Shown one piece after another: positions 5,906 to 62,347 of a stretch of DNA of 64,000 bases. The notes under the pieces were generated by a model, which was given only the letters and a program-made list of their open reading frames with translations, was not told where the DNA came from and ran no database searches. Position numbers and translations under genes: made by a program. The stretch's first letter is position 1; each line of letters begins with the position of its first letter. This DNA comes from Phycisphaerae bacterium (GTDB lineage Bacteria > Planctomycetota > Phycisphaerae > Sedimentisphaerales > Anaerobacaceae). Where the stretch lies: assembly GCA_028715705.1 (NCBI GenBank), contig JAQURJ010000001.1, positions 1 to 64,000 of the forward strand, given 5' to 3'.

Positions 5906-5934
5906 TTGACATTTGCATGTCAATTTGGTCTAAT
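5906..5934 (+). promoter_or_regulatory. Promoter of the first PEP-CTERM unit
   Basis: TTGACA at 5906-5911, a 17-base spacer and TCTAAT at 5929-5934 form a good housekeeping-type promoter. The predicted transcript start is about 5941. The same arrangement, with the same -10 and the same distance to a conserved block, occurs at 38916-38944. Confidence 0.7.
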
Positions 5935-5940
5935 ACGATC

Positions 5941-6225
5941 ATCAGCTTGGGGGCTGAAGAAGACTCACGAGTGCTAAAGTTTTTTGAGCCGTTGTTTTTG
6001 ACTTATGTAATTCTTTAGCTTGGTTTGTTTCTATTTTTAACGCGGGATTGAGAAAAGTTATCGCGGTGTCGGTCTGCCCTAAGGGTGCCGGAAGGCGGAC
6101 GATACAGGATAATGCGTTGGGGATCTGAAGAGAAAACTCACAAAATGAATGTATTAAGGTCTGCGCGCAGTGATTGCGTTAGGGCGGAAATTTTGAAAAC
6201 GGAGTTTTCTTGGAGGTATGGTGAC
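5941..6225 (+). ncRNA. Structured 5' leader shared with a second PEP-CTERM gene (copy 1)
   Basis: The untranslated leader is about 285 bases. It opens with ATCAGCTTGGGGGCTGAAGA (5941-5960), identical to 38951-38970, able to fold as a TCAGC/GCTGA hairpin. A second copy of the CTGAAGAGAAAACTCACAAAA word lies at 6125-6145, identical over 21 bases to the first copy of the other leader. GAAAACTC (6132-6139) pairs with GAGTTTTC (6202-6209), which ends two bases before the GGAGG ribosome site (6212-6216). The intervening TCTGCGCGC...GCG..AGGGC block is also conserved in the other leader. Two upstream strands able to pair with one downstream strand suggest a translational switch; this is inference from sequence. 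Confidence 0.65.
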
Positions 6226-6849
6226 ATGAAGAAGTCACGAAGGTTTGTATGTGTGGTGTTAGTGATGTTAGGGATGGTGACAAGTGCATCAGCTTTAATG
6301 TCTCTTCCAGATAGTGACCTATGGTTAGGTCAGCGAGAATACACCGACAACGGTTTTCATGTTCTTGTTGAGTACGCTGTTTATGATACATGGGGCAGCA
6401 ACGAATTCGAATTGGCAGGTTATACCAATCCAGGCACCGGCCGATATGTGTATGCCTATCAATTATGGAATGCTAATGATGCCGACAAGGCGGTCACAGC
6501 TTTCCAGGCTCTTAATCTTGACGAAAGTACTATCAGTGCTTCATTGTTGAGCGGGTTTGGATCGCTGGAAGACACCTATTCGAGTCAAGGAATAGGTCTT
6601 GAACCGAGTGGCGCGAATTCTTCCACCACTACGTGGACATTTAACGGCGATACTTTTGTGGCAAGTAAACATTCTTTCTTTCTTGTATTCAGCAGCAACA
6701 GCAGGCCGGTTGTGGGAACTTATGCGATAACTCAAACGAACGATAGCGGTGATGGGCCTCCTGCTCCGGAGATACCAGAACCGGCGACGTTGGCTATACT
6801 TTCAGCCGGAACTATCTGGCTGATGAAAAAACGCAGAGTTGTAAAATAA
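6226..6849 (+). CDS. PEP-CTERM secreted protein
   Basis: A 207-residue exported protein. Signal peptide MKKSRRFVCVVLVMLGMVTS; a middle region rich in small and aromatic residues with no family I recognise; and a C-terminal sorting signal IPEPATLAILSAG, hydrophobic segment, then KKRRVVK. PEP-CTERM proteins are processed by exosortase and linked to the surface or extracellular matrix. The ATG at 6226 is chosen because GGAGG lies nine bases upstream and the signal peptide starts there. It is followed after 15 bases by another PEP-CTERM gene. Translation is probably controlled by the long leader upstream. Confidence 0.88.
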   Translation: MKKSRRFVCVVLVMLGMVTSASALMSLPDSDLWLGQREYTDNGFHVLVEYAVYDTWGSNEFELAGYTNPGTGRYVYAYQLWNANDADKAVTAFQALNLDESTISASLLSGFGSLEDTYSSQGIGLEPSGANSSTTTWTFNGDTFVASKHSFFLVFSSNSRPVVGTYAITQTNDSGDGPPAPEIPEPATLAILSAGTIWLMKKRRVVK

Positions 6850-6864
6850 GTAATGGGGGATTCT

Positions 6865-7446
6865 ATGAAAGTCAAATTGCTGATATTACTTATTATCGCA
6901 GTGTTTTGTACGCAGGCAAACTGTGAACAGATAGCCGTTATGGTTCAGCAGACTCCCGCCGACGGCGGGACAGTGACACCTTCGGTTGGTGTGCACAATC
7001 TTGACACGGGCAGTGCCGTGACGCTGACAGCAACACCCAAGGCCGGTTATCAATTTGTTTACTGGCTCGGTGACGTTGCTGACCCGACAGCGAGCACAAC
7101 GATGATGAGAGCAAATTCTCCCAGAATCATAGTGGCTGTTTTCGAGCGTGTTGAAAATGAGTATGTAACGCCTGTCGCCAATATGCAGGTATCCGGCGGC
7201 GGCAGCGGTTTACGCGGAAGTGCGGGCGATATTGTGCGGCAGAGCGGCGGAGCGGGCGGAGGCAAGCGTCCTCATAAACCTCATTATCCTAATTACACTC
7301 CGGATGAACCTGAAGAAACGGATGATTTTCCAGTTCCGGAGGATAACAATGATTTTCCAGTGCCGGAAGTTCCTGAACCGGCTACGTCGTTATTATTAGC
7401 CCTGGGGGCTATGTTCGGTGCCTGGAGACGCCGAATCGAGAGATAA
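6865..7446 (+). CDS. PEP-CTERM protein with an InlB-type repeat
   Basis: 193 residues. Signal peptide MKVKLLILLIIAVFCTQANC; then one repeat of the InlB/bacterial-repeat type (GGTVTPSVGVHNLDTGSAVTLTATPKAGYQFVYW, given here as landmarks around residues 35-75: GGTVTP, ATPKAGYQFVYW). A Gly/Ser-rich low-complexity linker, a repeated DDFPVPE element, and VPEPATSLLLALGAMFG followed by RRRIER as the sorting tail. GGGGGA sits four bases before ATG 6865, preferred to the ATG at 6853. It is co-transcribed with the preceding PEP-CTERM gene and followed by a strong terminator. Confidence 0.85.
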   Translation: MKVKLLILLIIAVFCTQANCEQIAVMVQQTPADGGTVTPSVGVHNLDTGSAVTLTATPKAGYQFVYWLGDVADPTASTTMMRANSPRIIVAVFERVENEYVTPVANMQVSGGGSGLRGSAGDIVRQSGGAGGGKRPHKPHYPNYTPDEPEETDDFPVPEDNNDFPVPEVPEPATSLLLALGAMFGAWRRRIER

Positions 7447-38915: not shown

Positions 38916-38944
38916 TTGACTTTCCTTCTCTATTATGGTCTAAT
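38916..38944 (+). promoter_or_regulatory. Promoter of the second PEP-CTERM unit
   Basis: TTGACT (38916-38921), 17 bases, TCTAAT (38939-38944); predicted start near 38951. Matches the promoter at 5906-5934 in hexamers, spacer length and distance to the conserved leader block. Confidence 0.7.
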
Positions 38945-38950
38945 GCCCTA

Positions 38951-39183
38951 ATCAGCTTGGGGGCTGAAGAGAAAACTCACAAAAGTTCGTAGTTCGACGT
39001 TTTTGTTTTGCTGTTTTAATTTTTGCGTTAATTCATGTTTATTCGCGGTTAAACAGCTGTTTGGTTGAAGCGATTTGAGGGGAAAGAAAACTCGTAAAAT
39101 GTTTGTACGGATGCTCTGCGCGCCAATGGAAGCGAAGGGCTTAAAACAAAAAACGAGTTTTTGGGCAAAACGTGAGGTAACAA
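38951..39183 (+). ncRNA. Structured 5' leader shared with the first PEP-CTERM unit (copy 2)
   Basis: Begins with the same 20 bases as the other leader (38951-38970) and continues GAGAAAACTCACAAAA. A second, diverged copy lies at 39083-39100, where AAAACTCGT (39087-39095) pairs perfectly with ACGAGTTTT (39153-39161) twelve bases before the GAGG ribosome site. Between them, CTCTGCGCGC..ATGGAAGCGAAGGGC matches the TCTGCGCGC...GCG..AGGGC block of the first leader. The leader is about 233 bases. The same architecture in two unrelated coding contexts argues for function. Confidence 0.65.
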
Positions 39184-39765
39184 ATGGTGATGAAGAACAA
39201 AATTACAAAATGGACTCTGGCAGCGTTTCTTATCGCGGCCTCAGTCATTCCGGTTGCGGCTATGCCGGTAGGGGGTTCGCTTATAGCGTCGAACAGCGAT
39301 ACTATAAGCCTCGGCGGTTCGACAGCGACGGTCGACAGCTACGTCTATCAGTACTCGGCGAACCAATATATATATAGTTACCAGATAGTCAGCGCCAGCC
39401 CCGCACCGATCAGCTTTTTCTCGGTGGCTCTCGACAGCGGAATGACGGCGACATCGGCATCTATAGACAGCAATCCTTTTGCCGGCTGGGTCGACCCGGT
39501 CTTCTGGCAGATTATAAACAGCGGCGGCACTCAGAGCGTTAATTATATGTATAACGCCCTCGCTAACAGCCAGACGTCTTCGCTGATGTGGTTTAGTTCG
39601 CCCGATGCCCCCGGTATGGGAACAGCATCGGTTTTTGGCTCATTATCGGGCGTGCCCCATTATTCCGAGGGCGATGTTTACGCACCGGCTCCGGAGCCAG
39701 CAACTTTAGCCCTTTTAGGGATAGGAATAGGGATAGCATATAAAAGAAATAGGAATAGGGTATAG
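39184..39765 (+). CDS. PEP-CTERM secreted protein
   Basis: 193 residues. Signal peptide MVMKNKITKWTLAAFLIAASVIPVAA; a beta-rich middle of unknown family; then EPATLALLGIGIGIAYKRNRNRV as the sorting tail, with PEPATLALLG. GAGG six bases before ATG 39184 decides the start. The last 50 bases coincide with the AGGGATAGGAATAGG repeat word, so part of the C-terminal helix and basic tail is encoded by repeat DNA. The gene stands behind the shared leader. Confidence 0.85.
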   Translation: MVMKNKITKWTLAAFLIAASVIPVAAMPVGGSLIASNSDTISLGGSTATVDSYVYQYSANQYIYSYQIVSASPAPISFFSVALDSGMTATSASIDSNPFAGWVDPVFWQIINSGGTQSVNYMYNALANSQTSSLMWFSSPDAPGMGTASVFGSLSGVPHYSEGDVYAPAPEPATLALLGIGIGIAYKRNRNRV

Positions 39766-62222: not shown

Positions 62223-62276
62223 ACCGATGAAATTGTTTGCAATTTCCGCGATGAGCGAGTAGAATACCGCCATCTG

Positions 62277-62347
62277 GGGACGTGGTGTAACGGGAGCACA
62301 CCGCGGTCGCATCGCGGGAATGAGGGTTCGATTCCCTTCGTCTCCAT
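62277..62347 (+). tRNA. tRNA-Ala (anticodon CGC), unusual body
   Basis: A 71-base cloverleaf: acceptor GGGGACG pairs with CGTCTCC, including G3-U70, the alanine identity pair; D-arm GTGT/GCAC with a seven-base loop AACGGGA; anticodon stem CCGCG/CGCGG with loop GTCGCAT, anticodon CGC after T33; four-base variable loop; T-arm GAGGG-TTCGATT-CCCTT; discriminator A. No CCA is encoded. The D-arm resembles those of glutamine or glycine tRNAs more than the usual alanine body. Stands alone between the regulator and the secreted protein. Confidence 0.8.

Follow-up and report, generated by a model that had tools for sequence, protein, structure and literature searches.

Two PEP-CTERM genes in the 64,000-nucleotide stretch of Phycisphaerae DNA analyzed here (the window) are each preceded by a long untranslated leader. 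An earlier note, made from the sequence alone, proposed that the two leaders form a switch-like RNA in which two copies of an AAAACTC repeat compete for a single GAGTTTT strand next to the ribosome site. The locus thus raises the question of whether the two leaders belong to a conserved RNA class and, if they do, how such a class would control the genes behind it. The features of both loci to which we refer below are as follows (all on the + strand):

5906–5934 (+): promoter of leader 1 (TTGACA, 17-base spacer, TG-G-TCTAAT)
5941–5957 (+): predicted transcript start and 5′ hairpin of leader 1 (UCAGC-UUGGGG-GCUGA), with covariation across relatives
5959–5967 (+): repeat 1 of leader 1, GAAGACTCA
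6119–6140 (+): internal unit of leader 1, GGGG-AUCUGAAGA-GAAAACUCA
6160–6169 (+): TCTGCGCGCA block of leader 1
6202–6209 (+): GAGTTTTC strand of leader 1, the pairing strand of the earlier note; not conserved in the class
6226–6849 (+): first gene, a PEP-CTERM protein with a YVYAYQ..FFLVFSS domain
6865–7446 (+): second gene, an InlB B-repeat (Flg_new_2) and PEP-CTERM protein
38916–38944 (+): promoter of leader 2 (TTGACT, 17-base spacer, TG-G-TCTAAT)
38951–38967 (+): predicted transcript start and 5′ hairpin of leader 2, with covariation
38971–38979 (+): repeat 1 of leader 2, GAAAACTCA
39009–39020 (+): boxA-like TGCTGTTTTAAT of leader 2, at about +58 (9/12 to consensus; weak alone)
39078–39094 (+): internal unit of leader 2, GGGGAAA-GAAAACTCG and the bases directly 5′ of it
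39115–39124 (+): TCTGCGCGCC block of leader 2
39153–39161 (+): ACGAGTTTT strand of leader 2, whose partner in the predicted fold is the second repeat
39190–39765 (+): PEP-CTERM gene behind leader 2, with an alternative upstream start at 39184

Recurrence of the leader in related genomes

Direct reading and alignment bore out most of the resemblance described for the two leaders. The first 20 bases (ATCAGCTTGGGGGCTGAAGA) are identical (5941–5960 and 38951–38970), both promoters have a 17-base spacer and a second hexamer equally far from the predicted start, and both leaders contain a TCTGCGCGC..GCG..AGGGC block and the 21-base word CTGAAGAGAAAACTCACAAAA (6125–6145 and 38964–38984). GAGTTTT is also where it had been placed in leader 1 (6202–6208), as is ACGAGTTTT in leader 2 (39153–39161). 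The promoter hexamers, described as shared, are the same at TCTAAT and differ at −35 (TTGACA in leader 1 and TTGACT in leader 2). The 21-base word spans the second, internal repeat of leader 1 and the first repeat of leader 2 and thus indicates that each leader contains repeats of one unit.

Within the window, a model of the promoter and 5′ unit (R1) scored 83.8 and 77.8 bits at the two leaders and 13.8 at the next place; for a model of the 3′ module (R2) the corresponding scores were 47.7, 42.0 and 14.2. The window leaders belong to the training sets of both models, so the independent evidence for a class is recurrence in other genomes. A search of 60 relatives with a 19-base start word, mismatches allowed, recovered near-exact copies in about 10 other genomes of the window's family, each with a CTTGACTTT..TNTAAT promoter upstream, a GAAAACTCA repeat downstream and, where enough downstream sequence was available, a PEP-CTERM gene. 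An exact gapped pattern occurred at 12 places among 84,980 species (one genome each); all 12 are in metagenome assemblies of Sedimentisphaerales, Phycisphaerae or Planctomycetota, and again at PEP-CTERM genes.

The search of related genomes with a covariance model, which the earlier note had suggested, found the leader in about 30 related species. Built from 18 sequences, R1 was run against the 161 genomes of the order and identified 35 copies in 31 of them, every one a member of the window's family; a sample of 397 genomes from the class contained no copy outside this family. PEP-CTERM genes follow almost all copies, as had been claimed for the two in the window. Four genomes (the window genome, G000, and G005, G006 and G024) have two copies at unlinked loci, and a fifth (G010) has a weak second copy. 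R2 matches in 89 genomes fell inside known leaders and nowhere else, most of them in training sequences. On these sequence comparisons, we consider both window leaders confirmed as members of one conserved leader class.

The statement that no named riboswitch or RNA motif has this pattern held as well. Rfam 15 at gathering cut-offs returned a single match in the window, a tRNA at 62276–62346, and nothing credible for either leader at E values up to 5. The literature searched, which covered few subscription journals, contained no matching description. The leader RNA class is real and apparently undescribed, and its occurrence is limited to PEP-CTERM operons of a single planctomycete family.

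A third genomic copy of TCAGCTTGGGGGCTGA stands isolated in the window genome (G000:C37:3999–4018, − strand). We rejected it as a third leader because it has no promoter, repeats or PEP-CTERM gene; it is a chance match or a remnant.

Architecture of the class

The leaders share a 5′ to 3′ order of promoter, UCAGC/GCUGA stem with a UUGGGG loop, GAAAACUCA, U-rich stretch (+40 to +80), further units and 3′ block. The promoter is of the form CTTGACTTT-17-TGNTYTAAT (extended −10), and all 18 aligned sequences have CTTGAC, 17 bases and a TNTAAT-like hexamer with TG ahead of it. The start stem begins at the predicted +1 or +2 and is followed directly on its 3′ side by GAAAACUCA, and each leader has one to three extra GGGG..GAAAACUCA units. 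The 3′ block ahead of the ribosome site reads UCUGCGCGCA, usually with CGCAGA upstream (a CGCAGA..TCTGCGCGC layout). Sequence outside the blocks diverges quickly, with 36 leaders falling into 28 clusters at 75% identity. Among the 26 non-redundant leaders, the commonest shared words beyond the start unit include GAAAACT/AAAACTC (17) and TGCGCGC (16).

The repeats are far more numerous in the leaders than expected from dinucleotide shuffles (68 versus 2.2). They lie on the transcribed strand (66 forward versus 1 reverse) and are absent from the 14 kb obtained by taking the 400 bases before each start, which indicates that they act as RNA. They are often 70–300 nt from the ribosome site, and some lie as far as 250 nt into the transcript. 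We also noted the letters of the repeat (AAAACTCA) in the 16S rRNA gene (L061, around 1960), with GGGG some way 5′ of it in what we take to be the helix 27 region; this may be rRNA mimicry or chance.

Formation of the start hairpin is supported by covariation in the alignment. Three of its five pairs changed on both sides, and its covariation score was reached by none of 500 shuffles. Variant stems recognized by eye include ACACC/GGUGU (L088), ACAGC/GCUGU (L081 and L085), UUCG/CGAA (L091) and GCCA/UGGC (L089). A stem between CGCAGA and TCTGCG is plausible, as the two can pair in 80% of cells, with changes that are mostly G-U. For a mini-hairpin, GAG-AAAA-CUC, mild coupling was seen at one flanking pair (p 0.0015) among the five pairs tried. 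The leaders are on average more stable than their shuffles (mean z −2.3), and the two in the window are no more stable than theirs (z −0.45 and −0.37). Neither window leader has an intrinsic terminator (a GC-rich stem and U run before the gene).

Mode of action

The explanation that we favor, while placing it somewhat short of probable, is that the class is a conserved cis-acting 5′ leader of family-specific PEP-CTERM operons with an rRNA-type antitermination or stabilizing function, rather than a ribosome-site switch. Such a leader would act after initiation. Its 5′-terminal stem-loop would protect the RNA end, and a trans-acting RNA-binding or elongation factor would bind the repeats and, where present, the boxA-like stretch. 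Transcription would then run through the long untranslated RNA and the operon, their RNA would stay stable, and leader-bearing loci that are unlinked would be expressed together.

The comparison with rRNA leaders centers on boxA, which has the consensus GYTCTTTAANA in gamma-proteobacteria and also occurs outside rRNA, e.g., in the mRNA leader of suhB (PMC5725501). Five leaders of one clade have an exact boxA (12/12; TGCTCTTTGACA or TGTTCTTTGACA) at +50 to +56. Outside this clade, 6 of 24 leaders, window leader 2 among them, have TGCTNTTT at +48 to +58 (shuffle mean 1.3, p 0.0015, for a pattern defined post hoc), and the best match in window leader 1 reaches 8/12, which is not a good match. The boxA score between +34 and +80 gave p 0.028 with the exact-boxA clade and 0.17 without it; the TGCTNTTT matches are the one signal to stand out. 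We rejected boxA as a feature of the whole class, since the 12-base score exceeded shuffles in 7 of 36 whole leaders, six of them from one clade. The rRNA leader of the window genome (L061 840–1075, G000:C3) has a hairpin followed by a boxA (GTTCTTTGACA) about 54 bases past the inferred start. The boxA parallel suggests that an rRNA-like start may serve the read-through and retention of these mRNAs.

Like the boxA leaders of rRNA operons (NusB/S10 antitermination) and of suhB, the PEP-CTERM leaders are long untranslated RNAs behind a TTGAC/TNNAAT promoter, with a hairpin near the start; some members of the class also have a boxA or a boxA-like sequence around +50. They differ in that a clear boxA is found in one clade only and protein-coding genes lie downstream. 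Their GGGG..GAAAACUCA repeats and UCUGCGCGC block have no counterpart in the window genome's rRNA leader, and the absence of repeats and TCTGCGCGC blocks there led us to reject the leader as a copy of it. Several points count against the antitermination reading: a clear boxA is limited to one clade, the window leaders fold no better than their shuffles, boxA leaves the GAAAACUCA repeats unexplained, and the distribution of a NusG paralog lends it no support. NusG is present in nearly every genome of the family, usually with one paralog; this was rejected as a partner because leader-positive and leader-negative genomes have it alike. The paralog of the window genome is encoded at G000:C7:20876–21130.

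The stabilizing part of the proposal has a parallel in ompA-type mRNA leaders, which are stabilized by a 5′-terminal stem-loop. The stem of the PEP-CTERM class similarly starts one or two bases past the predicted +1 and has compensatory changes; the class differs in its extra internal repeats and 3′ block. If the leader does antiterminate or stabilize, rRNA-style leaders may have a second use in the mRNAs of surface proteins, in a phylum whose RNA regulation has hardly been studied.

Shared upstream control of PEP-CTERM genes has a precedent in proteobacteria, where they are under RpoN-dependent control (PMC9850573). The systems are unlike in that the leaders described here have a conserved TTGAC/TNTAAT-type promoter and carry their conserved sites within the transcript. 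The promoter conserved in all 18 aligned sequences is not a −24/−12 sigma-54 site (RpoN/PrsR-type). The literature searched, again with few subscription journals covered, described control at the promoter (RpoN) and contained no RNA-level control of PEP-CTERM/exosortase substrates.

It is possible, if on the doubtful side, that a putative RNA-binding protein or small RNA acts in trans on the GAAAACUCA repeats and regulates how the PEP-CTERM mRNAs are translated or degraded, in a CsrA-like or base-pairing-sRNA-like manner and without influence on transcription elongation. The repeats are short and strand-specific, vary in number and spacing and stand in otherwise fast-evolving leaders, which fits such sites, as does the presence of the same repeats at unlinked loci of one genome. 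The distance of the repeats from the ribosome site fits less well, and the site is not consistently occluded (mean unpaired probability of 0.44 versus 0.39 overall). Furthermore, GGA in a hairpin loop, the criterion for CsrA/RsmA targets, is not found here; the start hairpin has the loop UUGGGG, with GGGG rather than the GGA of CsrA sites.

We consider doubtful the proposal that the GGGG-hairpin/GAAAACUCA units, possibly small pseudoknots, make up a new regulatory RNA class in which they serve as a sensor or factor-loading array setting the output of exosortase-sorted proteins at unlinked loci. If true, it would give PEP-CTERM proteins their first regulon at the RNA level, as far as we know. 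The start hairpin, countable repeats and boxA-like stretch make RNA-level control testable by reporter fusions.

A ligand-binding riboswitch is unlikely. H-type pseudoknot aptamers such as preQ1-I consist of a stem, a G-rich loop, an A-rich linker and a pairing tail, and the start unit may share this general layout (UCAGC/GCUGA as first stem, the loop UGGG with CUCA, and an A-rich linker), with the unit then repeated along the leader. The first stem covaries, and the loop GGG and the CUC are complementary and nearly invariant. The same invariance leaves the second pseudoknot stem, whose columns hardly vary, putative. The internal units lack the first stem; as GGGG-loop hairpins they were rejected because they do not exceed shuffles (median p 0.6). 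Neither the missing Rfam match nor the downstream genes, which encode exported proteins and give no metabolic hint, favor a riboswitch.

The switch of the earlier note, in which AAAACTC copies compete for GAGTTTT and thereby hide or free the ribosome site, has an equally small chance of being correct and does not hold as a class feature. In the window, pairing in both leaders exceeds that of shuffles (p 0.015 and p below 0.005). Of the 35 leaders, however, four contain GAGTTTT (both of those in the window plus L069 and L077), and pairing of all repeats with the last 65 bases is above chance (p ≤ 0.05) in 5 of 35, with a median p of 0.46. Similarly, the last repeat and the region before the start codon pair no better than dinucleotide shuffles (mean z −0.2, median p 0.48). 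By these counts, the AAAACTC/GAGTTTT stem is limited to the window genome and a few other genomes. Covariation in the stem could not show because the repeat is nearly invariant, and the 35 leaders have no two conserved exclusive structures of which one hides the ribosome site.

The predicted ensembles of the window leaders also differ from one another. In leader 1, GAGTTTTC pairs with repeat 2 (0.41), repeat 1 (0.31) or a local partner (0.28), and holding the GAGTTTT strand single lowers ribosome-site exposure. In leader 2, the second repeat is the only one to pair with the strand (0.76 versus 0.00), and exposure of the Shine-Dalgarno sequence is 0.39 whether the strand is paired or kept single. 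Competing pairings are thus possible, by this modeling, in leader 1 alone. In the clade that has the exact boxA (g6 and L072), the first repeat instead pairs strongly with a different strand, GUGAGUNNUUUCUC in form and located near +65.

It is very unlikely that the repeats are DNA-level operators, i.e., transcription-factor sites downstream of the promoter. The first unit does overlap the transcription start, but the repeats have one orientation, none lies upstream of +1, copies extend deep into the transcript, and the hairpin has compensatory changes. Shared ancestry only, with a duplicated promoter-leader segment of no present function, is scarcely credible: leader and operon are co-inherited and one clade (G070, G071, G072 and G011) seems to have lost the leader, but the blocks are kept as the rest diverges and the stem is kept through compensatory changes.

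Downstream genes and history of the operon

The genes behind the two leaders had been described as unrelated except for their PEP-CTERM tails. The tails are indeed shared; the two first-gene proteins also have a distant domain in common, with 29% identity over 139 amino acids including the tail (E 6e-5 in a single comparison). The second gene of the leader 1 operon codes for the InlB-repeat PEP-CTERM protein, which has relatives in 70 of the 89 genomes of the family whether or not the leader is present, and is possibly a family-wide surface component. Leader-negative genomes usually keep the operon promoter before the InlB-repeat gene and lack the start unit and repeats. Retention of the promoter where the leader is absent suggests that an operon found across the family either gained the leader or lost it.

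One genome grouped with the leader-negative ones (G070; L094 613–693) has a worn leader that keeps a UUGGGGG start block and has no GAAAACTC repeats, which, judged from these letters, looks like a loss in progress. On a tree of the InlB-repeat gene, presence of the leader changes 3 times, versus 12.9 in shuffles, with an apparent loss in one clade; the resolution of the tree is too weak to fix gain versus loss. We rejected the leader as a mark of all PEP-CTERM genes, as it is absent from those at C17, C6 and C1:65588 of the window genome. The leader marks a subset of PEP-CTERM genes.

The first genes at four loci (L068, L075, L092 and L093) form one related family with the motif FFSVxL..LWFxSDYAPxxG. 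In G000, G006 and G024, genes of this family are at second loci, apart from the InlB-repeat operon.
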